Below, one piece after another: positions 5,701-27,696 of a stretch of DNA of 32,896 bases. Source of the stretch: Desulfovibrio sp. (GTDB lineage Bacteria; Desulfobacterota; Desulfovibrionia; Desulfovibrionales; Desulfovibrionaceae). Under the pieces are notes generated by a model. It was not told the origin of the DNA. It made no database searches and saw only the letters and a program-made list of their open reading frames with translations. The position numbers and the translations under genes are program-made. The stretch covers positions 1 through 32,896 of the forward strand of contig JAITRF010000134.1 of the NCBI GenBank assembly GCA_031288535.1, given 5' to 3'. How positions within the stretch are numbered: position 1 is the stretch's first letter; each line of letters starts with the position of its first letter.

Positions 5701-5792
5701 AGGGCGCGCTTTTGCCGCGGACGCCCATGCTCAAGCGCAGGACGCAATTTTGCGCTGTATGTGAAATAAGGCTTGCCGCAAAGGTCAAGGCC

Positions 5793-7958: not shown

Positions 7959-7980
7959 CGTCCGATTGCAAAAATAGTTT

Positions 7981-8085
7981 TAGAGCGTTTTGTCGTTGAA
8001 AGTATCTTTCCGATAAATGCTCTGGCGTTGCGAAGCATTGCTTCGCAACGCCCGCGAGATTGGCATAGGCGGGCTTTGCCCTCTG
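7981..8085 (+). repeat. Modular repeat family R3, copy 1
   Basis: A 43-base module starting TAGAGCGTTTTGTCGTTGAA and ending AAATGCTCT is followed by a perfect hairpin (GGCGTTGCGAAGCA 8024-8037 / TGCTTCGCAACGCC 8039-8052), then CCGCGAGATTGGC and a GGCGGGCT stem. The same order of modules occurs inverted at 27780-27893, but there the hairpin has a different sequence. The element fills most of the gap between the otsAB and GH15 genes. Confidence 0.7.
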
Positions 8086-8176
8086 TAAGTGTTACACGTA
8101 CCAGTCGCCGCAAAACATTTAAGGGTTCGCAGTAGTTGCTTTTGCGGGCAAACACTGAAATCGACCGGAATTTATC

Positions 8177-9970
8177 ATGCCAGATCTGGACTATGGGGTA
8201 ATAGGCAACTGCAGGACGGCCGCACTGGTCTCAAAGAGCGGCGACATCCGCTGGCTCTGCCTGCCGGACTTCGACAGCGCCGCTGTTTTCGCGTCCATCC
8301 TTGACGCGGAAAAGGGCGGGCATTTCGGATTCAGCCTGTCCGGCGAGCACTCCTGCTCGCAGTCGTACATAGCGCAGACCAACATACTGCGCACGCTTCT
8401 CGTCACGGAAAACGGAGTGGCCGAGGTGCTGGACTTCATGCCGCGCTACCGCGTTTCCGACTCGGACTACCACATGCCCCCGGAGATATACCGGCTGCTG
8501 CGCCCTCTGGTCGGCAAGCCGCGCCTTGGCGTCGTCTATGCGCCGGCGCTGAACTACGCGAGGGAGGCGGTCCGCCACGAAAAGCGCGGCGGCTGTGTGC
8601 TGAGCTACTCCCTGTGCAACTCGAACAACAACATATACCTGTATTCCAGCCTCGATCTCGACGCTGTCCTCGAGGGCCGCGAGTTCACTCTGGAAAATGA
8701 CGAATTTCTGCTTCTTTCCTACCACCAGAAGCTGGTAGGCATTACTCTGGAGCACGTCAACCTCGAGCTTGAGCGGACAAGGGTCTACTGGCTCAACTGG
8801 TCGCAGCGTTCCGTAACATATCAAAAATACCGGGAGCAGGTTTCACGCAGCCTGCTGGTGCTGAAACTCATGACCTTCGAACAGACCGGGGCCATTCTCG
8901 CCGCCCTCACCACCAGCATCCCCGAGACGATCGGAGGGGAGAGGAACTGGGACTACAGGTACTGCTGGCTGAGGGACGCGTCCATGTCCATGGTCACTCT
9001 GCTGGAGATGGGGCACCCGAACGCCGCCAGGCGTTTTTTGCGGTTCATCAGGCGCATCCTGCGCTCGAAACAGGACAGCTTCCAGGTCATGTACGGAATT
9101 CGCGGCGAACGCGTGCTCACGGAAGAGCGTCTTTTACATCTGGCCGGGTTTGAGAATTCCAGGCCCGTACGCGTCGGCAACGCCGCTTACGCCCAGAAAC
9201 AGAACGATTCCTTCGGCTACCTTCTGGACGTCATGTACAATTATTACCGTTTTTTCGGCGGGTCCCCGGATGACATCGAAGAGATGTGGGAGATCGTGAA
9301 AAAGATAATCAGCACCGTGCTGGAGGACTGGCGCAATCCGGACCACAGCATCTGGGAATTCAGAGCCAGGAAGGACCATTTCGTATTTTCCAAGGTCATG
9401 TGCTGGGTGGCTCTGGATCGGGGGGCGAAGATCGCCGAGTTTTTCGGGTGCGGGGACGAGCGCGCGAGCTTCGCCGCCGAGGCCGAGGCGGTGCGGAACG
9501 AGGTGTTCGCCAAAGGCTGGAACGAGGAATTGCAAAGCTTCTCCCAGGTGTACGGGAGCGCGGAAGTTGACGCTTCGCTTCTGCTCATGGAGCAGTACGG
9601 CTTTGTAAACGCAAGCGACGAGCGTTATGTGAAAACCGTGGACCGGGTGAAAGAGAGGCTTTTCCACAATGGCCTCATGTACCGTTACCGCAACGACGAC
9701 GATTTCGGGCGGCCGGAATCGGCCTTCACCATCTGCACCTTCTGGCTTGCGCGGGCGCTTTACGTGACGGGGCGAAAAGAAGAGGCCCTGGCCGTTTTCG
9801 GCAATGTCCTCGCCCATTGCAACCATGTCGGCCTTTTCAGCGAGGACCTGGATTTTGAGACGAAGTGGCAGCTCGGCAACTTCCCGCAGGCCTATTCGCA
9901 TCTGGCCCTTATCGAAACGGCTTCGCTCCTGAACGAGGGCAAAAGCTGTCCCCGCTTCATCACGCCCTGA
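8177..9970 (+). CDS. GH15 family glycoside hydrolase (trehalase/glucoamylase-like)
   Basis: This 597-residue, probably cytoplasmic enzyme belongs to the bacterial GH15 family, which includes glucoamylases and trehalases. The N-terminal beta-sandwich begins with the typical DYGVIGNCRTAALVSKSGDI. The (alpha/alpha)6 domain carries NWDYRYCWLRDASM (from Asn257), then SRPVRVGNAAYAQKQND, and IWEFR with Glu394. Near the C-terminus the conserved LGNFPQAYSHLALIE block follows an acidic stretch. No signal peptide is seen. Its position directly after the trehalose-forming enzyme makes trehalose, or a trehalose/maltose-type glucan, the likely substrate; this is inference from context. The start at 8177 has only a weak ribosome-binding site, but the N-terminal motif fits the family start. 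Confidence 0.9.
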   Translation: MPDLDYGVIGNCRTAALVSKSGDIRWLCLPDFDSAAVFASILDAEKGGHFGFSLSGEHSCSQSYIAQTNILRTLLVTENGVAEVLDFMPRYRVSDSDYHMPPEIYRLLRPLVGKPRLGVVYAPALNYAREAVRHEKRGGCVLSYSLCNSNNNIYLYSSLDLDAVLEGREFTLENDEFLLLSYHQKLVGITLEHVNLELERTRVYWLNWSQRSVTYQKYREQVSRSLLVLKLMTFEQTGAILAALTTSIPETIGGERNWDYRYCWLRDASMSMVTLLEMGHPNAARRFLRFIRRILRSKQDSFQVMYGIRGERVLTEERLLHLAGFENSRPVRVGNAAYAQKQNDSFGYLLDVMYNYYRFFGGSPDDIEEMWEIVKKIISTVLEDWRNPDHSIWEFRARKDHFVFSKVMCWVALDRGAKIAEFFGCGDERASFAAEAEAVRNEVFAKGWNEELQSFSQVYGSAEVDASLLLMEQYGFVNASDERYVKTVDRVKERLFHNGLMYRYRNDDDFGRPESAFTICTFWLARALYVTGRKEEALAVFGNVLAHCNHVGLFSEDLDFETKWQLGNFPQAYSHLALIETASLLNEGKSCPRFITP

Positions 9971-10083: not shown

Positions 10084-10425
10084 AGAAGACATCCGGCATA
10101 ATGTTTGCATTAGTCCTAGAAAAACTCTAGAATCTGGACATGAACACACTCACCTCTCTTGCATGGCTCAAGGGTTTTCGAGCCATCCGCACAAGATACT
10201 GCCAACGACTGTGCAATTACTTAGCTATGGTGCAATTTGCCTGCGCAATTATTCTTTTTCGAAGAATTGCTGTTTATCTGCAGTAATTGTGCCGGATATC
10301 TTCTACGTTCGGGACGGACGACCCCGGCCCCCCTCATTTGCGCGCCGCGTCTCAAATCATAACTTTCTTCTTTATCCTGATAAATATCCCCGGCATTCGG
10401 CCGATAAATATGTACAGAGGTGTTT
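10084..10425 (+). promoter_or_regulatory. AT-rich upstream region with palindromes
   Basis: The base composition drops in GC here, between two GC-rich genes. Visible structure includes CTAGA/TCTAG (10116-10130), ATGGCTC/GAGCCAT (about 10163-10186), three GCAATT direct repeats (10213, 10232, 10245), and an ATTCTT/AAGAAT palindrome near 10249-10266. These probably form the control region of the following gene. AGAGG at 10416-10420 is its ribosome-binding site. I cannot assign a specific regulator. Confidence 0.4.
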
Positions 10426-12378
10426 ATGTCTATGTGGGGCAGCCTGAGCAGCATACTTAACACAAGCAGCATCGGGACCGTATGGCAACCCAAATCCAAC
10501 CGCATACAGGTCGGCCGCGATGTGGGTGCTCTTTCCGCGACAGGCTTCTGTGGCGGGCCTGATCGCAACAGGGTCCTCGGGCAGGGTGACGATGTGACGC
10601 TCAAGTCCCGGTGGCTTTTCGACTTCGTTAAAGCCAAGACCGAATCCGGCGGCACGGTACCCGACTTTCGCGAACTCTCCAAAGTGATCAAGGAATTCGG
10701 TGAGACCGGCTTTGCCTCGCCCAGTATGCTGAAAGGCGTCGACGGCACGGTGCTCCAGCAGAAAGGCGACTATGTCGTCTCTTACAACGGCGGCGGGCTC
10801 CTGGTCTACAAAAAGAACGCTGAAGCAGGCGAGTTTACGCAAGTAACCGCCGTATCGGGCAAGCAGGACATCAGGATCGCCTGGGACGGCAACGGCGAGC
10901 CTCAAATCCTGACGGGCGGCGCGGCCCTCACCAACGGCGTTCTGGCGGCCCAAGGGGAAAATGAGTTCCTATTCCGCGCCTCCAAGGCCGATGTTGCCGC
11001 CGGCAAGGGAACCACGGTCTTTAACGCATCGTTCGCGGAGGGAACGTATTCCGGCGGCGACAATGTGACGTACCTGGGCCGTTACGCAGGCGGCATCTTT
11101 ACCGAAACCACGGGCAAGATCACCTTTGCCGGATATTTCAGCGGCGCCTCTTTTGAAAAGCTCACCGGGGACAGCATTTTTTCCGGCGTCTTTACAAATG
11201 CTTCCGTGACCCTTGAAAAGGGCAAGAGTACGTTCAGCGGATATTTTTCCGCCTCCGAGATTCAGGCAGGCAACAACGGCAGCACGGTAAACGGCCTTTT
11301 CATGGATGCCTGCATCGTCAAGGGCGGCGATGGAGACGACAGTTTTTCCGGCCGGTTCATCGACGGCGAAGTGGACGGCGGCAAGGGAGACGACAGTTTC
11401 GGCAACACGCAGTCCATGAACCCGGAAATACTGGCCTGTCAGACTGACAACGAAACCAGAGTCTACAGTGGGCTTGCAGCGGATTTCGTCAATGCCACCG
11501 TTAACGCGGGAGAGGGCAGCGACACCTTCGAGGGCGTCATGTGGGGCGGCGCCCTGAACCTGGATGAGGGCGAAAACACCGTTCGCGGCATGTTCGGTGA
11601 AGCAACGGTCAACGGCGGCAAGGATAACGACGACATCCATGCTGCCTACAGTTCTATGAGCTTCTTTACTACGGGCCTGGGCGACGATACGGTTACTCTG
11701 GTCACCGCCGATCAAAGTTCGGTGACCACGGACGAGGGGACCAACCTTGTCACTATGGGCCAAAACAACCCCACACCGGGCGACCACACATGGCAGACCA
11801 GGGACGAATATTTCTCTAAAAGCCGCCCCATGGAAACCGGCGAGTTGCGGCACAATACCGTGAACACGGAAAAAGGCGACAACACCGTGGGCATCCATAA
11901 CGGGGAGTCCATCGTGGCCGTTCTCAACGGTAATGAGTACGAAGAAAAGACCGTGGGCCGGAAAGCGGACGACGCCGGAACCGCAGAAGGGCCGTCTTCC
12001 CGGGGAACCGCTGAACAACCTTCCGTGCAGAACGCCGCTTCTCCCATAATGCCGCAAGCTCCCGCCCTACTTGACACTGCCGGACCGCAAGCCGCCGGAG
12101 ACGCTGAAAACGGCGTGCAGACCTCCCCCTCGGCGGATGAAAGAACCCTACGCTATGCCATCGGGCGCTACCTGAACGTGTACGGTTTTGAACCGCTTGC
12201 GGGCGAGACCCCGGCCGTGACCGTCCAGACCGACGGTGAATCGCGGATCTTTAACGGTGTGGAACGACACAACACCTTTGAGGACAACGAAGAAAACCCC
12301 GGCATGATGCGGGTCATTCGCCGCTACAACGGCTTCGGCTCTTTTTCCTGGGACAGGTGGACGCGCCTGCGGGCATAA
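10426..12378 (+). CDS. RTX-like beta-roll repeat protein of unknown function
   Basis: I do not recognise a named family for this 650-residue, acidic, Gly/Asp/Thr-rich protein. Residues ~1-190 are non-repetitive. Residues ~196-490 form tandem repeats of about 18 residues (pattern xxTFxGxFxxAxVxxxxG), which become calcium-binding RTX-type nonapeptides in the middle (GGDGDDSFS near 300-308, GGKGDDSFG near 318-326, GLGDDTV near 417). The C-terminal ~160 residues contain a Pro/Ala-rich linker followed by a compact segment ending in an aromatic/basic tail. There is no N-terminal signal peptide, which would fit type I secretion, but no type I exporter is nearby. The ATG at 10426 is preferred because GAGG lies five bases upstream; GTG 10420 and ATG 10432 are alternatives. 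A secreted adhesin or structural protein is possible. Confidence 0.8.
   Translation: MSMWGSLSSILNTSSIGTVWQPKSNRIQVGRDVGALSATGFCGGPDRNRVLGQGDDVTLKSRWLFDFVKAKTESGGTVPDFRELSKVIKEFGETGFASPSMLKGVDGTVLQQKGDYVVSYNGGGLLVYKKNAEAGEFTQVTAVSGKQDIRIAWDGNGEPQILTGGAALTNGVLAAQGENEFLFRASKADVAAGKGTTVFNASFAEGTYSGGDNVTYLGRYAGGIFTETTGKITFAGYFSGASFEKLTGDSIFSGVFTNASVTLEKGKSTFSGYFSASEIQAGNNGSTVNGLFMDACIVKGGDGDDSFSGRFIDGEVDGGKGDDSFGNTQSMNPEILACQTDNETRVYSGLAADFVNATVNAGEGSDTFEGVMWGGALNLDEGENTVRGMFGEATVNGGKDNDDIHAAYSSMSFFTTGLGDDTVTLVTADQSSVTTDEGTNLVTMGQNNPTPGDHTWQTRDEYFSKSRPMETGELRHNTVNTEKGDNTVGIHNGESIVAVLNGNEYEEKTVGRKADDAGTAEGPSSRGTAEQPSVQNAASPIMPQAPALLDTAGPQAAGDAENGVQTSPSADERTLRYAIGRYLNVYGFEPLAGETPAVTVQTDGESRIFNGVERHNTFEDNEENPGMMRVIRRYNGFGSFSWDRWTRLRA
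11011..11895 (+). repeat. Coding tandem repeats of about 18 residues
   Basis: About a dozen units of 18-19 codons are visible. The first group (residues ~196-290) carries hydrophobic T-F-x-G-x-F patterns with few acidic loops. The later group carries GDD-type loops. Eighteen residues equals one turn (two nonapeptides) of an RTX beta-roll, so alternate half-turns appear to lack the calcium-binding consensus. Confidence 0.65.
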
Positions 12379-16213: not shown

Positions 16214-17347
16214 CTATTCTCCGCCGCGAATGGCCGCGTACGGTTCCAGAGAACGCGCCCGCAAGGCCGGGTACAGGGCCGCCAGCACGCCTACGGCCAC
16301 CGTCAGGAGCAGGATCAGGACCATCCTGGCCAGGGCGAAGCCCATGGATGACAAAGCGGAACCTTCGCTAGGGACGGCGCCGGCCGCCGCCAGCCATGCC
16401 GCCGAGCACACGATGCCGAGAAGGCTCCCCGCCCCCGCGAGCAGAGCGGCTTCGCCCACAATCAGCCTGAAAACGAAGGCGTTTTCGGCGCCCATGGCTT
16501 TCAGCAGGCCGAATTCCCGCCTGCGCTCATGGACCGTCAGGGCAAACATGGCGCCTGTAACCAGAAAGACCGCAAAAGCCACAAAGACCGTGGCGATACG
16601 GAAACCGCCGCCTTGCAGCAGGCCGTGCAGCTGATCGTTGATGGTTTTGAGCATTTCCGGGCGGGCGATGACCTCGACCCGGGCGATGTTCGTTTCCAGC
16701 ATGTTGACCGTAAAATCCGGAAAGGCGTCTTTCCGCAGACGGACCAGAAGCCAGGAAGGGTCCGGGATTGTTTCGCCCGGCACAGGAAAAAAGATCGCCG
16801 TATCCAGAAATGTGCCTGTTTCCCGCAGACGGCCCGCAATCGAAAACTTCCCGCCGTCCACCTCCAGGACGTCGCCGGGAACCTTTCCCGCCCCGACCCG
16901 CGCCCCCAGCACGATTTCTCCGGAATCTCCGCGCCATTCTCCGGGCGCCTTCCCTTCCAGCCAGGGCAGGACGACAAAGTCGGTTGCCGGAGCGAAACTG
17001 ACGAGGGTCGCCAAAACGTCCCCCACGCGCGCTTCGCCCCTGTATTTCTGAGGAGTCACGACGTCAACGTCGGAAAACGTCTTCAACTGCTCCGCCGCCT
17101 CCCCCGGCACCACGCCCCGGACCGGAGGTCCCTTGGCCAGATCGACTTGTCCGGTCTCTTTTGTTCCCGTCGGAACAAGGGCCAGATCCGCTCCCGTCAG
17201 CAGGCGGTTGCGCTCAAGTTCTCCCTGGATGCCGCCGGACGTGAAAACGGCCGTCAGGGCCATGGTGACCGCCAGGGCGACGGCAAGAACGATAAAGACG
17301 TTGTACGCCTTGTGTCCTTTCAGGTTTTTCAGTGCCAAGTTCCACAT
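16214..17347 (-). CDS. FtsX/MacB-type ABC transporter permease (last gene of operon)
   Basis: This 377-residue inner-membrane subunit has one N-terminal membrane segment (~17-37), a large periplasmic MacB-type domain (~40-255), and three C-terminal segments. The conserved cytoplasmic loop reads HERRREFGLLKAMGAENAFV, and the protein ends with ALYPALRARSLEPYAAIRGG. It is similar in design to the permease at 19678-20886, and both probably share the single ATPase at 18976-19671. Such complexes usually do mechanotransmission or extract lipoproteins and periplasmic substrates rather than classic import. Within this operon a role in assembling or maintaining the copper or heme protein is possible, but that is inference. 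It is 41 bases after the BNR-propeller gene. Confidence 0.9.
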   Translation of the reverse strand: MWNLALKNLKGHKAYNVFIVLAVALAVTMALTAVFTSGGIQGELERNRLLTGADLALVPTGTKETGQVDLAKGPPVRGVVPGEAAEQLKTFSDVDVVTPQKYRGEARVGDVLATLVSFAPATDFVVLPWLEGKAPGEWRGDSGEIVLGARVGAGKVPGDVLEVDGGKFSIAGRLRETGTFLDTAIFFPVPGETIPDPSWLLVRLRKDAFPDFTVNMLETNIARVEVIARPEMLKTINDQLHGLLQGGGFRIATVFVAFAVFLVTGAMFALTVHERRREFGLLKAMGAENAFVFRLIVGEAALLAGAGSLLGIVCSAAWLAAAGAVPSEGSALSSMGFALARMVLILLLTVAVGVLAALYPALRARSLEPYAAIRGGE

Positions 17348-17388
17348 GGCGTCGTTTTTCCGATCAAGGTGTTCGTTCGCATTCGGGA

Positions 17389-18555
17389 TTACCAGACGGG
17401 CTTCCGGGAATCAGGCGAAGCCCGCCTTCTGCTCCGCCGGACCAGCAAAAATACCGCGACCGCCAGGACCGCGACCGCCGCAAGGCCGTACCGGACAAGA
17501 GGAGGGACATCGTCTCCCGCGCCGGGCAAGGTTGCGATGTTCGCATCCGTGTAGGATAACAGGCCGTATGTCGTGCCGGCAAGAATGACCGGAGGTTTTC
17601 CCGGCAGGACGTAAACCTTGTGCAGGAAGGGGTTGTCCAGGCCGGTGTTGATATCCGTCCAGGTCGCGCCCCTGTCCGTGCTCCGGTACGCCCCGCCCCA
17701 GGCCCCGGCGTAGACCACGCCCGGATACTGCGCATGCGCGGCGAAGGAAAAAATGGTGATCGTCAGCAGGCCGGTTTCTTTCCAGGTTCTTCCCCCGTCC
17801 ACCGTCCGGAAGGCGCCTCCGTTGGACTGGCCGACGTAAAAATCCGTCGGGGTGGCCGGATGGTACGCCCCCGCCAGCACGACGTCCGGGTCTTCCGGGT
17901 CAATGTACAGGGAGAGAACGCTCAGACTGCTCAACCCCTCGTTGACGTCGATCCAGGAGACCCCGCCGTTGCCGCTCTTGAAAACGCCGGCGCCGCCCGT
18001 GCCGGCGAACAGGTACTGGGGATTCCTGGGATCAATGGCGATGCAGTTGACATTGACCGCGCGCCTGAACCCGGAGGACATGTGCCACTGTTTCCCCCCG
18101 TTGGTGCTGATGGCTACTCCGTCCTGTATGCCCACATAGAGGAGATTGGGGTCCTTCGGGCTTATGACGATGCAGCGGACGTACAGGTTGGGAAGCCCTT
18201 CATTGAGAGACCGCCAGGTGCTTCCGCCGTCAAGGGTTTTGAAAATCCCCAGGCCCTCATAGCCGACGTATATTTCCTTGCTGTTGAGATAATTGACCGC
18301 CACGGAATTGGGCGGGATATCCCCCGGCAAATCCGCGCCGATGCCCGTCCAGGTATTCCCGCTGTCAAGGCTCTTCTTCAGACCCTGGGACGTGACCGCG
18401 TAGAGCGTGGAAGGCCGCGCGGGGTCGCCGGTCAGAGAAAGGATATGCACCGCGTCCAGGGCGATTTTGTTCCAGGCGTTATCCCCGGCCGAAGCCGGAG
18501 CAGGAGCGGCGCACAGAAAAACGCAAAACGGAAGGATGGTGAATATTCTGGTCAT
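17389..18555 (-). CDS. Membrane-anchored BNR/Asp-box beta-propeller protein
   Basis: The 388-residue protein has a Sec signal peptide (residues 1-23), a beta-propeller with at least six Asp-box repeats (SLDSGNTW, TLDGGSTW, STNGGKQW, SGNGGVSW, TVDGGRTW, STDRGATW), and a C-terminal membrane helix (~350-368) followed by a basic tail. It is related in fold to sialidase/YCF48/sortilin-type propellers, but sialidase catalytic residues are not evident. YCF48-type propellers act in cofactor-protein assembly, which fits this cluster. ATG 18555 has AAAGGA seven bases upstream; the frame extends further, but without a signal peptide at the N-terminus. It lies 10 bases after the NTF2-like gene. It could take the place of NosD as periplasmic scaffold; that is a hypothesis. 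Confidence 0.85.
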   Translation of the reverse strand: MTRIFTILPFCVFLCAAPAPASAGDNAWNKIALDAVHILSLTGDPARPSTLYAVTSQGLKKSLDSGNTWTGIGADLPGDIPPNSVAVNYLNSKEIYVGYEGLGIFKTLDGGSTWRSLNEGLPNLYVRCIVISPKDPNLLYVGIQDGVAISTNGGKQWHMSSGFRRAVNVNCIAIDPRNPQYLFAGTGGAGVFKSGNGGVSWIDVNEGLSSLSVLSLYIDPEDPDVVLAGAYHPATPTDFYVGQSNGGAFRTVDGGRTWKETGLLTITIFSFAAHAQYPGVVYAGAWGGAYRSTDRGATWTDINTGLDNPFLHKVYVLPGKPPVILAGTTYGLLSYTDANIATLPGAGDDVPPLVRYGLAAVAVLAVAVFLLVRRSRRRASPDSRKPVW

Positions 18556-18565
18556 CCCGTTTCCT

Positions 18566-18979
18566 TTATGGATGGATAATCTTCCATTCCCGTTTGACGC
18601 GGACCAAATCCATATTGGAATTGGAACTGTACGGGCCAAACCACAGGGGGACGACAACCTTGGTCTCCACAACGGCGGTGTCGTCCTTGATGGTTTCTCC
18701 CGTTACTTCCAGTTGCATGTCCGGGGAGTACATGGAGACCCTGTCGATAAACTGGTTGTAAGAATTGTTGTAATGCCGGATGCTGACAAAGCCGTAGGCT
18801 TTTTTGTAGTCCCTGCTTTTCAGGGCCGCAAAATATTCAGCGATCACCTGCCGGGGAGAAACGTCGGGAAGTTTGACGTGATCGAGATAATACCGCATCC
18901 CGAAAATTCCGGCGAGGACGACATGAAAGGCGCAAACGGCCATCAGAACTGTTTTTCTGGTTTTCTTCATCATGCTCAT
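18566..18979 (-). CDS. Small membrane-anchored NTF2/DUF4878-like protein
   Basis: This 137-residue protein has one N-terminal membrane helix or uncleaved signal (~10-30) and a soluble domain. The domain begins SPRQVIAEYFAALKSRDYKK AYGFV, an arrangement typical of NTF2-like folds, where a helix-rich start is followed by beta strands (TVVETKVVVPLWF-like). It would face the periplasm. No catalytic motif is seen. Its start overlaps the ATPase stop by four bases (ATGA), which implies translational coupling to the transporter. A role as a small accessory or substrate-recruiting subunit is likely but unproven. Confidence 0.7.
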   Translation of the reverse strand: MSMMKKTRKTVLMAVCAFHVVLAGIFGMRYYLDHVKLPDVSPRQVIAEYFAALKSRDYKKAYGFVSIRHYNNSYNQFIDRVSMYSPDMQLEVTGETIKDDTAVVETKVVVPLWFGPYSSNSNMDLVRVKREWKIIHP

Positions 18980-19671
18980 GATGCCCCGCTCTTTGCGCCT
19001 TTTGGAGAAGATTCCCCCTCATAGGGGAGCACCTGCTGATTTTTCAGGAGGTAGGGCGTCCCGAAGGAGGAATAGTCCAGAGCGTGGGTCACCATCACGA
19101 CGAGGACCCCCTGCCTGTTGATGCGCTGGAAAAGGCCCATGATCTCCGCTTCGGTCGTCTCGTCCAGGTCGCCGGTGGGTTCGTCGGCCAAAATGACGGA
19201 GGGGCGGTTGATCATCGCCCTGGCGATGGCCACACGGCGTTGCTGTCCCCCGGAAAGCTGGGAGGGGTAGGCGTCCTCCTTGCCGGTTATCCCGACCATC
19301 CCCAGAAGCGACAGGGCGGATTCCCTGTCTTCGCGGTCAGGGGTCCTGCCGCTGAAGGCGATGGGCAAAAGGACGTTGTCCAGCACGCGCAGGGTCGGAA
19401 TCAGACTGGGGAACTGAAAGACAAAGCCGAGCTTCCGGTTTCTCAGGGCCGCCAGATCAGGCTCGGACAAGCGCCAGATGTCCACGTCGTCAATGAACAC
19501 CTTTCCTTCATCCGGTCTGGTCAAACCGCCCATGATGCTGAGCAGCGTCGTTTTTCCCCCTCCGGAACGCCCGGTGACAAGGACAAAGGCGGCGTCCTCA
19601 ATCCGCCAGTCTATCCGGTCCAGCACAGTAAGGTCCTTATATCGCTTGCCGATATTTTCCAACCGGATCAT
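18976..19671 (-). CDS. ABC transporter ATP-binding protein (LolD/MacB type)
   Basis: This 231-residue cytoplasmic ATPase has Walker A GRSGGGKT (34-41), a Q-loop at about Gln86, signature LSGGQQRR (139-146), Walker B VILADEPTGDLD (from 159) and the switch His near 196. The PTGDLD form and overall similarity place it with the LolD/MacB/FtsE group, which pairs with FtsX-type permeases. Two such permeases lie in the operon, one six bases upstream and one three genes downstream, so the complex could be a heterodimer. It occupies the position NosF would hold in a classical nos cluster, but it is not the NosF family by its motifs. Confidence 0.93.
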   Translation of the reverse strand: MIRLENIGKRYKDLTVLDRIDWRIEDAAFVLVTGRSGGGKTTLLSIMGGLTRPDEGKVFIDDVDIWRLSEPDLAALRNRKLGFVFQFPSLIPTLRVLDNVLLPIAFSGRTPDREDRESALSLLGMVGITGKEDAYPSQLSGGQQRRVAIARAMINRPSVILADEPTGDLDETTEAEIMGLFQRINRQGVLVVMVTHALDYSSFGTPYLLKNQQVLPYEGESSPKGAKSGAS

Positions 19672-19677
19672 CGCTGC

Positions 19678-20886
19678 TCATTCTCCTCTTCTGATGGCTT
19701 CATAGGGCTCAAGACGGCTTATGCGCAGGGCCGGGTACAGTCCGCCCAAGATTCCGGTGATCAGCGAGGCGGCCATGATCAGCAGGACGATGGCGAGAAA
19801 ATCCCGGTTGCCCGGCCAAACGTATACGTTGCCGATCATCCCGGTGATCAGGTCCTTGCTGAAATAGGTCGCGCAGGCTCCGATCAGCACGCCGATCGCG
19901 CCGCCAATCCCGGCGATGCACGCCGCTTCCAGGATAATGAGCCGAAAAACGACGCCGCGCCCGGCGCCCATGGCCCTGAACAGGCCCAGTTCCCGCATCC
20001 GCTGCCGGACGGACAGGGCGAACAGGCTGCCCACCAGACCGGCGGCCAGAAAACCGAAAATGCCGCCGGCCAGAAGGAGGGCGTCCGCCAGACCTTGCAG
20101 CCGCAGGCTGAAAAAACGGGTCAGACGGCCGGAGGTCAGGGCCTTCACCTCCGGAACGTTCCGCTCGATGTCTTCCGCCACAGCCGCGGGGTCCGTCCCC
20201 TCCTCCACCTGGACCAGAATGGTGGAAACCTGGTCCTGGCGGATGGGGACAGGGTAGAGCGGCGATTCCCGGACCAGCCGATAGGCGGTCTCCATGGTAA
20301 GAAAGACCGTATAATCGGCGCCGAGTCCCGTCGGCTCCAGAATACTGGCCACGGTAAAAGGCTTGCCCATGAAGATCAGCCTCTGCCCGATGGCTTTCGC
20401 CGGAGTGCCGACCACGGCGGAAATGACCTTGGCCCCCACGATGATCTGGTTGTTTCGCTGCCTCTCTCCGGTTTTTTGCAGAACCCAGGGGGCGATGGTG
20501 AAATCCCGCTCCGGGTCGTAGCCGATCAGGGTCACCTGCACCACGCAGCAGGCCGCGTCCAGGCTGCGCAGGTAAACCTGCGCGCAGGTCCGCTTCACCC
20601 CCGGGATCTGCCGCACCTGCGCTTCCAGAGAAGAAGGCATGTAAAAAGTGGTGGGTTCGCCGGAAATCAGGGCCGCCAGCGCCTCTTCCCGGGACTGTGC
20701 CGGTACCGCCACGATATCGGCCCCCATGCGTTCCCTGGAGGTTTGCAGGGTGTCCTGAATGCCTTTGGAGAGGATGGCGGCCGGAAACAGGGTCGCGCAG
20801 GCCAGGACGATGCCGCCGATCATCAGCCAGGCGCGAAACGGCCTGCGCCGGAGATTCTGCCGGACCAGATACAAAAGCTGTCGCAT
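19678..20886 (-). CDS. FtsX/MacB-type ABC transporter permease
   Basis: The 402-residue inner-membrane protein has an N-terminal membrane segment (~20-40), a large periplasmic domain (~45-270), and three C-terminal segments. It has the RQRMRELGLFRAMGAGRGVV loop and a GGLYPALRISRLEPYEAIRR end, both diagnostic of the family. The periplasmic domain contains two adjacent cysteines in a CCVV context and a further Cys ~15 residues before, unusual for this family and possibly metal-binding or disulfide-forming. It lies 68 bases after the YtkA-like gene and six before the ATPase gene, so it is the natural partner of that ATPase. Confidence 0.92.
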   Translation of the reverse strand: MRQLLYLVRQNLRRRPFRAWLMIGGIVLACATLFPAAILSKGIQDTLQTSRERMGADIVAVPAQSREEALAALISGEPTTFYMPSSLEAQVRQIPGVKRTCAQVYLRSLDAACCVVQVTLIGYDPERDFTIAPWVLQKTGERQRNNQIIVGAKVISAVVGTPAKAIGQRLIFMGKPFTVASILEPTGLGADYTVFLTMETAYRLVRESPLYPVPIRQDQVSTILVQVEEGTDPAAVAEDIERNVPEVKALTSGRLTRFFSLRLQGLADALLLAGGIFGFLAAGLVGSLFALSVRQRMRELGLFRAMGAGRGVVFRLIILEAACIAGIGGAIGVLIGACATYFSKDLITGMIGNVYVWPGNRDFLAIVLLIMAASLITGILGGLYPALRISRLEPYEAIRRGE

Positions 20887-20954
20887 GATTGTAGCGCCTT
20901 GTTCGTTTTGCCGCCGGTACGCCGTAATACCTCAAAATGTATATGTTACCGGGT

Positions 20955-21404
20955 TCACTGCCCGATGTCAAAATCAAAGGACTGCCGCAAGACCCGGCCG
21001 TCGTCGTCCCCGAACGTCGCCCTGATCTGCCAGTACCCTCCATGCCCGTACTGGACCAGCGCTACATACCGTCCGTCCTTGTCCTCCGCAAACTGCAATT
21101 CCAGGGGATAGCCCTCCATCTGCATGTCGGGCATCCGCACGTCCCCGGTCACGACCTTGCCCTGCACCGGATTGCCGGCGGCGTCCCGCAGGACCAGGCT
21201 GACCTGGGCCACGCCGGGCCGGGCCGGGGTGGTCAGTATCCAGGTAATCCCCTGAGATTTCTTTTCCACGGTTATCGCCGGGGAAGACGCCCGGTCGGCC
21301 GCCGCGAAACCCGATGCGGCCGGAAAAGCGGCGGCGGCCCAGCACAAAAGGCAGAAAACAGAGAAAAGGCGCCGCCGGTGTTTCATTCCACGAATCATCT
21401 CCAT
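20955..21404 (-). CDS. YtkA/FixH-like periplasmic protein with Met-rich motif
   Basis: The 149-residue product has a Sec signal peptide (basic KHRRR then hydrophobic residues to ~35) and a single Ig-like beta domain. The motif VRMPDMQMEGYP (Met91, Met94, Met96) matches the MPxMxM pattern of YtkA-like domains, which is suited to copper binding; a histidine follows at 121. Family members occur with cytochrome oxidase and copper-enzyme assembly genes. In this operon it lies directly after two redox genes and before the transporter, so it may supply copper to the NosZ-like protein, as NosL does elsewhere. This role is inference. ATG 21398 is a better-spaced start than ATG 21404. Confidence 0.7.
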   Translation of the reverse strand: MEMIRGMKHRRRLFSVFCLLCWAAAAFPAASGFAAADRASSPAITVEKKSQGITWILTTPARPGVAQVSLVLRDAAGNPVQGKVVTGDVRMPDMQMEGYPLELQFAEDKDGRYVALVQYGHGGYWQIRATFGDDDGRVLRQSFDFDIGQ

Positions 21405-21437
21405 ACCTCGCGGTTTGCGGGAATTTTTCCGCCGCGG

Positions 21438-22658
21438 TCACCAACTCGGCGCATCGGCGTCCATCATCCAGAAATACTGCGGAAACCGGTAATGCAGGGC
21501 CAGCCACTTGTTGTCATGCCGGGTGGAAAAGGCGTCAATCGTTCTCGGGGCGGCGGCGAAGGACTGGCCGAAGTCCTTTTTGTGGCAGCTCGCGCAACTC
21601 CAGATGGGGGTGGTGCTGCAGGTGTGATAGGTGACGACCGTAAAGGCGAGGAATACAGTTAGACTGACGGGGAAAACCAGCCATCTGATCCGCTTTTTCC
21701 GGGCGTTTCCCCGATCCGCCAGAGGCAGCAGGCACAGCCCCAGAAGCAGGAGCGCGGGAATCCAGAAGACACCGAGCATTTCCATGTCTTCCTGGAAATA
21801 GCGGGTCACCTGAAAAAACATCATGTACAGCCAGTCGGGCTGAGGCACGGAGGAGGTGGTGACGGGGTCGGCGAAGTCCTGCTTCTGGATCCCGAAAGCC
21901 GCCAGGGCAAGGAGCAGCAGGGTCGTCCCCGCCACCGCGGCCGCGGCGCGCGGGAACCGCCCGGAAAAGAACCGCCCGGGGCGCGCCGGTCCGGTTCTTT
22001 TGTCGCCATGTGCGGGCCCGTTCGCATCGGGCGGCGCATCTTTTTCACGGAACCCCGGCCTGCCGCGAAGCGCGGGGAAATGGCCGCCAAGGCAGACCCC
22101 GGCCAGCAGGGGGAGCACAAGGGTATGCAGGGCGAACCACCTGCCGACCGGCACAACGCCGTTCACAGTATCCGAAAACAACAGCCACTGCAGCGCGCCC
22201 GCGAACAGGGGCAGGCCGTCAATCCAGTGCCCGATGGTCTTCACCGTCCAATAGGCCCTGAAATCCCAGGGCAGCAGATAGCCGGTCACGGTAAAAGCCG
22301 CGGCCAGCGCCAGCAGGAGGATGCCGGTACACCACTTCCGTCCTCCGCGGCGCCATGCCCCGCGGAAGATCACGATCAGAAGATGCAGCGTCAGGAAGGA
22401 CATCAGGACAAAGGCGCCCCAGCGGTGGAGGGATCGGAAAAATCCGCCCGCCCGGACCTGCGTTTCGATAAATTCGACGCTCGTCCAAGCGTCCGCCGGG
22501 GTCGGCTGAAAAAACATCGCCATATAGATCCCGGACGCGGCCTGAAACAGGAACACAAGAACGACAAGGCCGCCGGAACGGCCCAGGAAACAGACCAGAT
22601 CGTGCCCCGCCCCGCCGGTCTTTCCGCCGGCGGGGCGGGGAGCGCATTCTCTGTCCAT
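21438..22658 (-). CDS. Full-length cytochrome b with C-terminal c-type heme motif
   Basis: This 406-residue integral membrane protein contains both the b6-like and subunit IV-like parts of cytochrome b. Heme ligands are His78/His92 and His178/His193, on two helices with the usual 13 and 14 intervening residues. GYLLPWD is present at about 126-132. The quinol-site PEWY motif is altered to PDWL near 274-277. Uniquely, the last ~60 residues are periplasmic and carry CASCH (355-359), a c-type heme site, so electrons could leave directly to a partner such as the NosZ-like protein encoded just upstream. ATG 22658 is chosen because residues before it are a shadow of the nosZ end. The two genes are 19 bases apart. 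Confidence 0.88.
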   Translation of the reverse strand: MDRECAPRPAGGKTGGAGHDLVCFLGRSGGLVVLVFLFQAASGIYMAMFFQPTPADAWTSVEFIETQVRAGGFFRSLHRWGAFVLMSFLTLHLLIVIFRGAWRRGGRKWCTGILLLALAAAFTVTGYLLPWDFRAYWTVKTIGHWIDGLPLFAGALQWLLFSDTVNGVVPVGRWFALHTLVLPLLAGVCLGGHFPALRGRPGFREKDAPPDANGPAHGDKRTGPARPGRFFSGRFPRAAAAVAGTTLLLLALAAFGIQKQDFADPVTTSSVPQPDWLYMMFFQVTRYFQEDMEMLGVFWIPALLLLGLCLLPLADRGNARKKRIRWLVFPVSLTVFLAFTVVTYHTCSTTPIWSCASCHKKDFGQSFAAAPRTIDAFSTRHDNKWLALHYRFPQYFWMMDADAPSW

Positions 22659-22677
22659 GCTGTACGACACCCTGGAA

Positions 22678-24249
22678 TTACGCCTCGACGATAAACCAGC
22701 CGCGCATCTCCAGATGGAGCGGTCCGCAGAAATAGGAGCAGAACATGGCGAATTTGCCGGGCCTGTCGGCGACGAACTCGAAGATGATCGACTTGCCCTG
22801 CGGGACGCCCCAGTTGGTCTGCAGACCGTATTCGTTGATGATGAAGCCGTGAACAGGGGCGGGGTCATTGGTCAGCCCGGTGGCCTTGTCGATATTCGTC
22901 AGGATGACGCGTACCTTGTCGCCCTTTTTCACAGTCACGTTATCCGGCTTGAAGCCGTAACTGAACTCCTGCAGACGGACTTCCACCACCCCGCCGTCGA
23001 TCCTGGTCACCCCCGGGGCGCCTTTGTCCTCGGGCACCAGCTTGGCGTTCACGTTGGGGTCTTTATGCGGAGCCCAGATGGAGGCGTGGCCTTCCGGAGG
23101 CAGATCGGCGTTGAGGTATCCCCGCACGACGTCCGCCTTGATGATTTTGGCGTTATGCGGTTCGGGCACTGTGGGCGCCCTGGCGATGACCTCTTCCGTG
23201 GCCAGATCGATCAGCTCCACGTTGGTCGGGTCCTGGTTGGAAATGGAACCGGCGAAAAGGCCCGTGGAGTATTTGTTCCAGATGGTGAGGTACTTGCTGT
23301 CCGGCGTGATCTGCAGGTGGCCCGGCCGGTAATGGACGGGGATCTTTTTCACCATTTCCATCTTTTCCAGGTCAATCTTGGCCACGGCGTTGTCCACGAA
23401 CAGGGTCGTATAGGCCCATTTCCCGTCGTTGGTGAAGACGGTGTGCAGAGGACCGGGGGCCGGGCTCTTGTTGAAGCCGGGGACGGCGGGGGTCATGTCG
23501 ATCTCTTTGATCACCTCCATCTTGGCGATGTCGATGACCGGGACGTTTCCGGAAAGCTTGCCGGCGACAAAGGCCAGTTTGCCGTCAATGGTCAGGTCTA
23601 TGCCGTGGGGATTTCTGCCCGCCGGGATGAACTTGGTCCGTTTGAAGCCGTCCACCTCGATCACATGCACGCCGGAACGGTAATAGTCCGTGGCCAGACA
23701 ATATTTTCCGTCATGGGTGACCACAAGATAGTCCGGGGCTGATTCCTGCCCGTCGGAGACGTCGATTACCTCGACCTTGCCGCTGGCGATGTCGATTTTG
23801 GCCATTTTCCCGGACAATTCGCCTGTGGCGAAAAGGGTTTTCCCATCGGGGGTGATGGCGATGTGGTGCGGCCCGAAGGGCGCGGGGATGTTGATCTTGC
23901 GGATCAGCTCCTGGGTGGAGATATCCACGACCCCGACGGAGGAATCCCCCTTGTCGTTGATAAAGACGTACTTGCCGTCCGGGGTCCCGTTGGTGCCGGG
24001 CTTGTTGGAGCCGGAAAAGACCGGCTCGTGGGTGTCCACGCCCACCGGGATCAACTTGATGGTCCGCAGGCTGGGCAGGCCGATGACCTGCAGGGTTCCG
24101 GAAATTCCGCCGGAAGCGAAAATGATGTATTCGTCCTTGTCCTGGGCAAGTCCGCCCGGCTGGGCGGCGCCGGCCTCCAGGCAGGCTGCCGTGAGAAAAA
24201 GCGCGACCAGCAACGCGACGGCCGGATGCAGATTTTTTTTGTTTTTCAT
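22678..24249 (-). CDS. nosZ: Divergent NosZ-like (nitrous oxide reductase) multicopper protein
   Basis: NosZ reduces N2O to N2 in the periplasm using a catalytic CuZ cluster in a seven-bladed propeller and an electron-entry CuA site. This 523-residue protein has a Sec-type signal peptide (as in clade II), YVTN-like blades (HHIAITPDGKTLFATGELSG) and a cupredoxin tail. CuA ligands are complete: His467, Cys504, Cys508, His512, Met515. CuZ-type histidines are seen at 74, 128/129, 215 (NPHG), 269 (GPLHT), 311 (PGHL) and 365 (EPHN). The usual DxHH is DTHE (72-75), so one ligand is Glu, while an extra His appears at 128/129. It is about 110 residues shorter than ordinary NosZ. GAGGGAG precedes ATG 24249. 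Membership of the family is strong; N2O as substrate is likely but untested. Confidence 0.88.
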   Translation of the reverse strand: MKNKKNLHPAVALLVALFLTAACLEAGAAQPGGLAQDKDEYIIFASGGISGTLQVIGLPSLRTIKLIPVGVDTHEPVFSGSNKPGTNGTPDGKYVFINDKGDSSVGVVDISTQELIRKINIPAPFGPHHIAITPDGKTLFATGELSGKMAKIDIASGKVEVIDVSDGQESAPDYLVVTHDGKYCLATDYYRSGVHVIEVDGFKRTKFIPAGRNPHGIDLTIDGKLAFVAGKLSGNVPVIDIAKMEVIKEIDMTPAVPGFNKSPAPGPLHTVFTNDGKWAYTTLFVDNAVAKIDLEKMEMVKKIPVHYRPGHLQITPDSKYLTIWNKYSTGLFAGSISNQDPTNVELIDLATEEVIARAPTVPEPHNAKIIKADVVRGYLNADLPPEGHASIWAPHKDPNVNAKLVPEDKGAPGVTRIDGGVVEVRLQEFSYGFKPDNVTVKKGDKVRVILTNIDKATGLTNDPAPVHGFIINEYGLQTNWGVPQGKSIIFEFVADRPGKFAMFCSYFCGPLHLEMRGWFIVEA

Positions 24250-24299
24250 ACTCGGCTCTCCCTCTATTCCAGATAAAAAAGGTGAAATTCTTCCGCCAT

Positions 24300-24320
24300 G
24301 GCATTTACGCTTGAAATGCC
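24300..24320 (-). promoter_or_regulatory. Perfect palindrome in the nosZ leader
   Basis: GGCATTT (24300-24306) and AAATGCC (24314-24320) flank a seven-base spacer about 50 bases before the NosZ-like start, in the 161-base gap after the QcrC gene, the longest within the operon. On the minus strand a TATCAT box lies a little upstream. It may be an operator for an internal promoter or an mRNA hairpin. No known regulator consensus matches. Confidence 0.35.
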
Positions 24321-24410
24321 CTGCAACACCCGCGACCTGACGCCGCAACGCCCCATGATACCGCAAAAATAAAAAGCGCGTGAACACGTTTCCCGGCTGA
24401 TTCCTCCTTG

Positions 24411-25103
24411 TCATTTTTTTCGGGAAAGATAGGCGGAGACCGCATGCCTTTCCGTATCGCTCAGGGGGACGAGCGACATGATGGTCGTCTGGCTGACGAT
24501 TTGCGGTTGAAGAATAACCCGCTCGATATAGGCCCGGTTCGTCCTTGAGCCGATTTGGGTCAAATCGGGGGCGAAAAAGCCTCCTTTCCCGTCCATGCCA
24601 TGGCAGGACTGGCAGAACCGTCTGAACAGATCCTGCCCCTCGGCGATCTGCTCCCCGGTTATCGGCGGCAAAACCATCCTGTAGCCGTGCCGTTCGTCCT
24701 CCAGGATGGAGACCGCGGTCAGGCCGGCGACGGAAAACGCCACGGCCAGACATACGGCGGCGGCGACAGGCCGCTTTCTTACGTCGACGGTCTCGCCCTT
24801 GTCCAGAAAGGGCAGAAGAAGCAGCAGGACAAAAACCAGGGCGGGCAGAACGCATGTGCCGACGACGGTCAGAGGGCCTTCAAAATATTTCAGCAACTGA
24901 AAATAAAATAAAAAGTACCATTCGGGCCGGGGGACGTAGGTGACGTCGCCGGGGTCGGCCATTTCTTCCAGAGGCGCCTGCCAGACGAAGGAAAGGGCGA
25001 CCAGAACCGCCAGGACCGCCAAGGCGGTCATGCATTCAAAAAACATCTGGTGCGGATAAAAAAAGGACCGGTCTCTTCCTCCGGAGGGGGAATCCGTCTC
25101 CAT
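24411..25103 (-). CDS. qcrC: Cytochrome b subunit IV fused to cytochrome c (QcrC-like)
   Basis: This 230-residue membrane protein joins a PetD-like subunit IV (three membrane helices at ~24-42, 80-100, 112-132, with the quinol-site PEWY at 60-63) to a periplasmic cytochrome c domain. CQSCHG is at 164-169 and a probable Met ligand at 209 (TIMSL). This architecture is that of menaquinol:cytochrome c reductase QcrC of Bacillus and similar anaerobe complexes. It pairs with the b6-type gene immediately upstream. The METDS start at 25103 is supported by AAAGGA six to seven bases upstream; an earlier ATG at 25142 has no good site. Confidence 0.92.
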   Translation of the reverse strand: METDSPSGGRDRSFFYPHQMFFECMTALAVLAVLVALSFVWQAPLEEMADPGDVTYVPRPEWYFLFYFQLLKYFEGPLTVVGTCVLPALVFVLLLLLPFLDKGETVDVRKRPVAAAVCLAVAFSVAGLTAVSILEDERHGYRMVLPPITGEQIAEGQDLFRRFCQSCHGMDGKGGFFAPDLTQIGSRTNRAYIERVILQPQIVSQTTIMSLVPLSDTERHAVSAYLSRKK

Positions 25104-25167
25104 CAAAAATTCCTTTTCCGACGGATGTGTCTGTCCGTGCATTGAAACATGCCTGTTGTCCAACCTC

Positions 25168-25836
25168 CTACAGGGGACGGGAAATGCCCTGCCGCCGCAC
25201 CATAAAGAAATGGGCCGCCAGGAATATGACCAGAAACGCCGGCAAAAACATGACGTGAATGACGAAAAAGCGGACCAGGGTGAGGGCGCCCACCTCGCTG
25301 CCGCCCCGGAGGGCGTCGGCCAAAAAACCGCCGGCAAGAGGAATGCTCGCGACCATGTTCACGCCTACCGTCGTCGCCCAATAGGCTTTCTGATCCCAGG
25401 GGAGCAGGTATCCGGTAAAGCAGGACCCCGCCACCAGCAGCAAAAGGAATATGCCCGCGATCCAGTTCAGTTCGCGCGGTTTCCTGTACGACCCGGTCAG
25501 AACGACGCGCAGCATGTGCAGGGAAACCATGACCACGGCCGCCGTCGTGCCCACCCGGTGAATCCCCCGGATGAAGCCGCCGAAGGCGGTTTCGTTCTCG
25601 ATGTAGTTGACGCTGGCGTAGGCGTCCTCGGGCGAAGGCACATAATAGAGCATAAGAAAAACTCCGGTCAGCGCCTGAAGCAGAAGAATGAAAAAGGCGA
25701 TGCCGCCGAAGCAGTACATGAACGCGGAAACGTGCTTCGAGGGATCGGCGTGTTCGGGAACCTCATGGTCCGCGATGCTTCTGATCAGCGGAGTGAGGTT
25801 CAAGCGTTCGTCGAGGAACTTGTAAACCCTGCTCAC
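25168..25836 (-). CDS. qcrB: b6-type cytochrome b (QcrB/PetB-like)
   Basis: This 222-residue, four-helix membrane subunit binds two b hemes via His93/His107 and His194/His209 and forms the quinol-oxidising core with the subunit IV fusion. The motif FMYCFGGI with Cys42 matches the cysteine that anchors the extra heme c(n) in b6-type proteins. GYLLPWDQKAYWA is conserved at about 142-154. I chose GTG 25836 because homology (SRVYKFLDERLNLTPLIR) begins there and the codon follows the Rieske stop with a one-base gap. A TTG at 25872 would overlap the Rieske gene by 35 bases. Confidence 0.93.
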   Translation of the reverse strand: MSRVYKFLDERLNLTPLIRSIADHEVPEHADPSKHVSAFMYCFGGIAFFILLLQALTGVFLMLYYVPSPEDAYASVNYIENETAFGGFIRGIHRVGTTAAVVMVSLHMLRVVLTGSYRKPRELNWIAGIFLLLLVAGSCFTGYLLPWDQKAYWATTVGVNMVASIPLAGGFLADALRGGSEVGALTLVRFFVIHVMFLPAFLVIFLAAHFFMVRRQGISRPL

Positions 25837-25837
25837 A

Positions 25838-26329
25838 TTACGCGTCCCGGATGAAGATTTTATCGGCTTCAACCTTTACCGCCAACTGCGCCAGCGGTTC
25901 TGGAGGGGGGCCTTCCAGCACCCTGCCCTGCGCGTCAAAGGCGCCCCCATGACAGGGGCAGGTGAAGCGCTGCGTGGCGGAATTCCAGTCCACACCGCAA
26001 CCCAGATGGGTGCATCTGTTGGTCAGGGCCACGAGTTTGCCGTCGTCCTGCCTCACCACAAAGGCCATCCGGCGCGCTTCCGACATCCGCCAGCCGTCTT
26101 TGCGCACGTAGCGGTAGGTGATCTTCGAGGGTTCACCCTGCCGCAACTGCCCCAGATCCGCGATTTCAATCCAATCCGCCCGGCTCTTCTTCAAGGCCGG
26201 AGAAAGAAAAAAACCGGCCAGGGGGATACCTAAACCCAACCCGAAAAGACCGGCCAGCGCTTTGATGCCGTTGGCGAGGAACCTGCGTCTGGGCGACGGA
26301 TGCTTTTCTTCGGAACAAACCACGCGCAT
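25838..26329 (-). CDS. qcrA: Rieske iron-sulfur protein (QcrA-like)
   Basis: The product carries the [2Fe-2S] cluster of the quinol oxidase complex and passes electrons from menaquinol to cytochrome c. Cluster motifs are CTHLGC (106-111) and CPCHGG (124-129). The N-terminus has a Tat-type signal/anchor (PRRRFL followed by a hydrophobic helix, ~12-44), as expected for a Rieske protein exported folded. ATG 26329 is one base after GGAGG, too close for use. GTG 26323 is spaced seven bases from it and may be the true start; a TTG at 26371 extends the frame further. It is the first gene of the operon. Confidence 0.93.
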   Translation of the reverse strand: MRVVCSEEKHPSPRRRFLANGIKALAGLFGLGLGIPLAGFFLSPALKKSRADWIEIADLGQLRQGEPSKITYRYVRKDGWRMSEARRMAFVVRQDDGKLVALTNRCTHLGCGVDWNSATQRFTCPCHGGAFDAQGRVLEGPPPEPLAQLAVKVEADKIFIRDA

Positions 26330-26547: not shown

Positions 26548-27696
26548 TCACAGGTCCGCCTGATAGCGGAATACGGCGGCGCAGCTTCCCTCTGTGGAAA
26601 CCATGCAGGGTCCGGATGGGTGTTCCGGGGCGCAGGCTTTGCCGAAGAGGGGGCATTGCCGGGGCCGCAGGCGTCCGCGCAGGATGTCCCCGCATTTGCA
26701 GGCGGGGTTTTCCTCCGGTTCGGGTCGGGCCGTGTCCGCAAGGAAGCGTCTGGCCGCGTCAAAGTCCGCGTAAGCGGGGCGGATTTCCAGGCCGCTTTGC
26801 GGGATGGCGCCCAGGCCGCGCCAGAGGGCGTTCGCCGGCGCGAACACTTCCGCAAGCAAGGCGCGGGCTTTGGCGTTTCCTTCCGGTTCCACGGCGCGCC
26901 GGTACTGGTTTTGTATCTCCGCCTCTCCCCTGTTCCGCATCCGGATCATCAGCAGGAGCGAGTGCAGGATATCGGCCGGCTCAAAGCCGCCGACCACCCC
27001 CGGTTTTCCGAATTCTCCGGCTATGAAGCCGTACGGTTCAAGTCCGATGATCGTGGAAACGTGTCCGGGCAGGAGGAAGGCGTCCACCGCCGCCGGGGAA
27101 GCGCCGTCGCTCCCGGAGTCCGCCTCTTCCCCGGTCCCTCCGCCTTCTTCTCCCAACAGGGCGCGCAGGGCCGGGGGAACCAGCTTGTGCAGGCTCAATA
27201 CGGCAAAATTTTTCAACCGCGCGCGAGCGGCGCGGAGTATGACGGCGGCCGCGGCCGGGGCGGTCGTCTCAAAACCCACGCCCAGAAAAACGACCGGCCG
27301 GTTCGGGTTTTCCGCCGCATAGTCCAGGGCTTCCAAAGGAGAGTAAACAACGCGCACGTCCGCCCCGCCGGCCCTGGCCTTCCCCAGACTCAGGCCGCCC
27401 GGCCCCGGAATGCGCATCATGTCCCCGAAACAGGCCAGGGTCAGGTTTTCCCTGCCCGCAAGCTCAAGGCAGGCGGCTATGTCCCGGACATGGGTCACGC
27501 AGACCGGACAGCCGGGTCCGGAGATGTGGGTGATTTCCTCGGGCCAGAGGGCGGGTAGTCCGGCGCGGAAGACCGCCGCGGTATGCGTTCCGCACACTTC
27601 CATAAAACGCAGGGGGGAGCGGATCTCGGCGCGGATTTTCTCCAGAAGCCCCCGGCATAGGACCGGATCGGAAAAAGCCCGGTTTTGCGCTGACAT
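26548..27696 (-). CDS. hypD: Hydrogenase maturation protein HypD
   Basis: HypD is an iron-sulfur scaffold that, with HypC, builds the Fe(CN)2CO unit of [NiFe] hydrogenases in the cytoplasm. The 382-residue length is normal. Diagnostic motifs are FMEVCGTHT (Cys35), GPGCPVC (Cys63, Cys66) and a C-terminal cluster-binding region (CKCGDILRG, then QCPLFGKACAPEHPSGPC) that holds the [4Fe-4S] cluster. No other hyp gene is adjacent, so the remaining maturation genes must lie elsewhere. It precedes the respiratory operon on the same strand by about 220 bases and may be separately transcribed. Confidence 0.96.
   Translation of the reverse strand: MSAQNRAFSDPVLCRGLLEKIRAEIRSPLRFMEVCGTHTAAVFRAGLPALWPEEITHISGPGCPVCVTHVRDIAACLELAGRENLTLACFGDMMRIPGPGGLSLGKARAGGADVRVVYSPLEALDYAAENPNRPVVFLGVGFETTAPAAAAVILRAARARLKNFAVLSLHKLVPPALRALLGEEGGGTGEEADSGSDGASPAAVDAFLLPGHVSTIIGLEPYGFIAGEFGKPGVVGGFEPADILHSLLLMIRMRNRGEAEIQNQYRRAVEPEGNAKARALLAEVFAPANALWRGLGAIPQSGLEIRPAYADFDAARRFLADTARPEPEENPACKCGDILRGRLRPRQCPLFGKACAPEHPSGPCMVSTEGSCAAVFRYQADL

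Follow-up and report, generated by a model that had tools for sequence, protein, structure and literature searches.

A probable clade III nitrous oxide respiration operon in Desulfovibrio sp. with candidate copper-site assembly genes

In the systems characterized so far, assembly of the CuZ centre relies on NosDFY and NosL. Paracoccus requires NosL for CuZ when copper is limiting (PMC6530538). N2O reductase is the only enzyme known in biology that converts N2O to N2 (PMC13122619). According to papers citing He et al. (Nature 2025, 646:152), a further group, clade III or L-NosZ, has recently been reported, and the passages of PMC13274427 that cite this work count Sporomusa acidovorans Mol and Desulfitobacterium nosdiversum among the clade III N2O reducers. 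Clade II nos clusters of the Desulfosporosinus and Wolinella type are already known to contain Rieske and cytochrome genes (PMC11096178), and in Bacillus subtilis the YtkA-domain protein CtaK has been implicated in CuA assembly (PMC13344008).

The DNA analyzed here is a stretch of 32,896 nucleotides from a Desulfovibrio sp. (contig JAITRF010000134.1), hereafter the window. It contains eleven genes on the minus strand between 16214 and 26329 (Table 1) that, judged from their sequences, very probably form an operon of this known but young family for respiring the greenhouse gas N2O. All eleven open reading frames were confirmed in place, and their Pfam and NCBIfam domains agree with an earlier interpretation made without database searches (the sequence-only reading). 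That reading had also taken the eleven linked genes as one unit, which is borne out by the recurrence of the same order in S. acidovorans and in Desulfovibrio/Deltaproteobacteria MAGs. In transcription order, the genes are separated by 1, 25, 161, 19, 33, 68, 6, -4, 10, and 41 bp, and the 161 bp ahead of nosZ could accommodate a second promoter. A promoter and terminator scan gave nothing convincing at the operon ends (8 promoter-like matches versus 3.3 expected, 26 terminator-like versus 15.3). The upstream regions of the operons that we compared have no clear common motif and no FNR box, and a sigma-54-like match occurs once, in Sporomusa only. The operon is flanked upstream by hypD on the same strand (26548-27696) and downstream by a DUF456 gene on the opposite strand. 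Elsewhere in the window, a trehalose-6-phosphate synthase/phosphatase fusion precedes a GH15 enzyme whose N-terminus resembles trehalase (5712-9970), and a Gly/Asp-rich, repetitive open reading frame of 652 aa (10420-12378) has no Pfam match.

Table 1. Genes of the operon in order of transcription, with window coordinates and the basis of each assignment.
Gene product	Coordinates	Strand	Basis
Rieske [2Fe-2S] protein, one N-terminal TM helix	25838..26329	-	PF00355 1e-15
Cytochrome b6, GTG start	25168..25836	-	PF00033 2e-50; NF002990 300 bits vs cut-off 325; four TM peaks
Subunit IV fused to class I cytochrome c	24411..25142	-	PF00032 + PF00034; PEWY, CxxCH
L-NosZ, clade III lactonase-type N2O reductase: propeller with CuZ-type His + C-terminal CuA cupredoxin	22678..24249	-	NF052460
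Second cytochrome b, b6-subunit IV fusion, short C-terminal CxxCH heme domain	21438..22658	-	PF00033 5e-29 + PF00032
YtkA/FixH-like periplasmic protein, candidate Cu chaperone	20955..21404	-	PF13115 28.7 bits
MacB_PCD/FtsX permease 1 (FtsX1), vicinal Cys C113-C114	19678..20886	-	PF12704, PF02687
LolD/FtsE-like ABC ATPase	18976..19671	-	LolD and FtsE models 186 bits each, below cut-offs
TM-anchored NTF2-like protein	18566..18979	-	Linkage to L-NosZ; AlphaFold, Foldseek
Membrane-anchored BNR beta-propeller (BNR/Sortilin), signal peptide + C-terminal TM	17389..18555	-	PF15902 1.6e-12
FtsX permease 2 (FtsX2), no Cys pair	16214..17347	-	PF02687 1e-16; four TM peaks

The product of the fourth gene had been described as a NosZ-like copper enzyme. 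The NosZ type stands, but the protein is not an unnamed look-alike: its 523 aa score 876 bits against NF052460, the model for the clade III lactonase-type nitrous-oxide reductase (cut-off 700). It differs from clade I and clade II NosZ in remaining below the cut-off of 625 for both models (197.6 and 239.6 bits, respectively). Nor is it a stray look-alike, since the closest cultured carrier is S. acidovorans Mol, one of the N2O reducers listed in PMC13274427. We aligned 18 L-NosZ with 11 clade I/II-type sequences over the CuZ and CuA residues. Seven histidines (H74, H128, H129, H215, H269, H311, and H365) are kept in 18/18 L-NosZ and are the probable CuZ ligands. One of the seven canonical CuZ His positions is lost: the second His of the DxHH motif, present in 11/11 controls, gives way to Glu75 in the window protein and is absent from all 18 L-NosZ. 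The other six are retained, and His129, adjoining His128, is new and invariant in L-NosZ. At the CuA site, C504, C508, H512, and M515 are likewise kept in 18/18. With H467 they complete the ligand set of the window protein, which the near group keeps intact; the distant clade III sequences (L110-L115) have Met in place of this first CuA His (6/6).

The first three genes encode a full Rieske/b6/IV-cytochrome c complex, as the sequence-only reading had claimed: besides the Pfam domains we found the Rieske motifs, a b6 protein with four TM peaks, PEWY, and a heme c motif. The Rieske residues C106, H108, C111, C124, C126, and H127 are kept in 10 homologues, and C177, C180, H181, and M222 of the subunit IV-cytochrome c protein in 12. 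The link between such a complex and a NosZ-type enzyme, which the same reading pointed out, is already known from other nos clusters. Rieske, cytochrome b, and cytochrome c genes stand beside nosZ in clade II nos clusters as they do in the window (PMC11096178), and we found Rieske/cytochrome genes beside nosZ in two clade II-type control loci (L135, L136). What separates the window from those clusters is that it encodes neither NosD nor NosL and has the FtsX/LolD-type ABC and BNR genes instead, with the NTF2-like gene added. The second cytochrome b has no Rieske partner of its own, and its C-terminal heme segment resembles subunit IV of distant L-NosZ-linked clusters. Menaquinol would be oxidized by the Rieske/b6/IV-cytochrome c complex, and electrons would pass from its cytochrome c domain to CuA of L-NosZ and on to CuZ, where N2O is reduced to N2. 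The second, Rieske-less cytochrome b with its terminal heme c may have been inherited with the enzyme as an additional connection, either from quinol to enzyme or as a quinone loop.

A scan of genome contigs revealed L-NosZ of 80-95% identity in ten Desulfovibrio/Deltaproteobacteria MAGs and in S. acidovorans Mol. Sporomusa and one MAG locus (L036) lack ytkA; otherwise the gene order is identical wherever the contigs reach. The occurrence of this order in both Sporomusa (Bacillota) and Desulfovibrio/Deltaproteobacteria MAGs argues against a chance arrangement. The cluster of S. acidovorans Mol shares ten of the eleven genes with the window in the same order, with an L-NosZ that is 80% identical over its full length. 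In addition to lacking ytkA, it differs in a second cytochrome b divided between two genes, in an additional ABC ATPase plus two further FtsX permeases downstream (L038:17759-20894), and in a sensor kinase and a sigma-54 regulator upstream. Sporomusa was the only carrier found in a wider search of 398 Bacillota genomes. Of 247 relatives searched, 7 of the 15 genomes belonging to the own genus carry L-NosZ, as do three from a second genus; the only other carrier is a distant member of the phylum. The tree places S. acidovorans within the Desulfovibrio group at modest support (88/85), a position that suggests horizontal transfer. Sample codes in PMC7024585 trace the MAG Nt197P3bin4 to the hindgut (P3) of the termite Neocapritermes taracua, and we infer a gut origin for the window organism.

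The sequence-only reading had not recognized NosD or NosL in the window and had left open their presence elsewhere in the genome. Profile searches of the whole own genome (95% complete) gave no match for TIGR04247 or PF05573, and neither protein was found in the ten near genomes searched, including Sporomusa. Sco was found neither in the own genome nor in eight near genomes searched. The ABC ATPase query returned 66 matches in the own genome, generic ABC matches that do not single out NosF. With nosD, nosL, and sco absent, the neighbours in the operon are the best candidates for building the copper centres.

Most constant among these neighbours is the NTF2-like gene, which adjoins L-NosZ in 17/17 clade III loci with sequence at that position. 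Its profile matched at 0/68 clade I-type NosZ loci, a limited control since all 68 are from Gammaproteobacteria, and at 0/5 other NosZ loci (four of the five clade II-type). The protein has no Pfam match over cut-off. A TM helix and an NTF2 fold are predicted (AlphaFold pLDDT 92), with Foldseek matches to MecA-N and NTF2-like transpeptidase folds (E about 2e-4). The YtkA protein exceeds the PF13115 cut-off of 25.9 bits and keeps M91, M94, M96, and H121 in nine homologues. It has the YtkA domain in common with CtaK, along with a conserved Met motif and His, but the window genome offers no Sco partner; its absence in Sporomusa and L036 means that it is not essential.

The FtsX/MacB_PCD permeases and LolD-like ATPase are of the kind found in LolCDE, MacB, and FetBCD. 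However, the window proteins are below the LolCE, LolD, and MacB cut-offs (LolD model 186 bits versus 308, LolCE model 38.7 bits versus 362), so that the set is not classed as LolCDE, and the likeness to FetBCD does not come from sequence comparison. The pair C113-C114 of FtsX1 is kept in 11/11 homologues. We considered it as a Cu site specific to L-NosZ and rejected this, as the pair is also present in Treponema and Fusobacterium permeases at loci without nosZ linkage. On plasmid pTS2 of Treponema saccharophilum (L155), a related FtsX permease with the same Cys-Cys motif lies beside a DUF4418 gene and an ABC ATPase, and this locus appears to be part of a wider uncharacterized ABC family. No link to P19, FTR1, or DUF2318 was annotated at the Treponema and Methylocella loci checked. 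The BNR protein has four invariant His and an invariant C-terminal VW in a nine-sequence alignment. It shares a propeller fold with the photosystem II assembly factor Ycf48 (TMt about 0.7), a similarity of fold only, as it scores 21.2 bits against PF14870 (cut-off 27); it differs from Ycf48 in its target and in its C-terminal TM anchor.

More distant clade III clusters, from seven genomes of the same phylum (one partial), show which of these partners vary. In these clusters L-NosZ is followed by the NTF2-like gene. In three of them NTF2 precedes cytochrome b6 and a subunit IV carrying a short heme c, without a Rieske gene. Six have an ABC ATPase nearby, which is GldA-like in the two annotated; one of this pair also has two Vgb propellers and c-type cytochromes. 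FtsX/LolD and BNR genes are missing from these clusters and are thus not required by the enzyme class. The sequence-only reading had proposed conserved co-occurrence of the eleven families as a check; the FtsX/ABC and BNR genes are not constant partners of L-NosZ. In one distant cluster (L111:9365-10700, minus strand), a NosD-like beta-helix domain is fused to cytochrome c.

This variation bears on an alternative in which the respiratory half (Qcr, L-NosZ, and second cytochrome b) works as described, while the ABC/FtsX-NTF2-BNR genes were co-transferred as an envelope or stress transporter and take no part in enzyme maturation. Such a role would fit the absence of FtsX and BNR from the distant clusters, the occurrence elsewhere of permeases that resemble FtsX1 and share its Cys motif (e.g., next to DUF4418 in Treponema), and LolD/LolCE scores so far below cut-off that they indicate no substrate. 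We nevertheless consider it unlikely, because the set stays adjacent to L-NosZ across the phylum boundary between Sporomusa and Desulfovibrio and the distant clusters, too, retain NTF2. Of the 247 relatives, ten have a close BNR homologue, and nine of these also have L-NosZ; the tenth genome is 58% complete and its contig starts inside ftsX1. Hence no close BNR homologue was found in a setting that excludes L-NosZ, the kind of separation that the sequence-only reading had named as evidence against itself. A different reaction for L-NosZ, whether detoxification of N2O or radicals or a YVTN/lactonase-type function, is highly improbable: the window protein shares about 42% identity with the distant clade III group and about 29% with clade I-type NosZ, with E75 altering the CuZ His pattern, but the seven conserved His, the intact CuA, the quinol-oxidizing complex in the same operon, and the listing of its close relative S. 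acidovorans Mol in PMC13274427 all speak for N2O respiration.

We therefore regard the operon as likely to be a self-contained clade III N2O respiration module with its own copper-site assembly set. That YtkA, FtsX/ABC, NTF2, and BNR are this replacement set is plausible, the observations above being grounds rather than proof. YtkA, with its Met motif and likeness to CtaK, would deliver Cu to CuA. The FtsX1-ABC-FtsX2 transporter, with membrane-anchored NTF2 and BNR on the periplasmic side, would do the work of NosDFY(L), possibly by ATP-driven supply or release of sulfur or copper while apo-L-NosZ is held during CuZ assembly. More tentatively, and with somewhat less than even confidence, we propose a dedicated clade III maturation system that needs neither NosDFYL nor Sco. 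Its constant part would be the NTF2-like protein, with interchangeable ABC and propeller components (FtsX/LolD and BNR in the Desulfovibrio-Sporomusa type versus GldA-like ABC and Vgb in the distant type).

The window operon adds a member to a known kind, clade III, and its accessory genes are the informative part. In a genome that has no NosD, NosL, or Sco, a clade III operon narrows the search for replacement factors to a few candidates, with NTF2 foremost, all open to testing in a cultured organism. The operon also places genes for N2O respiration in Desulfovibrionaceae-type MAGs, including at least one from a termite hindgut.
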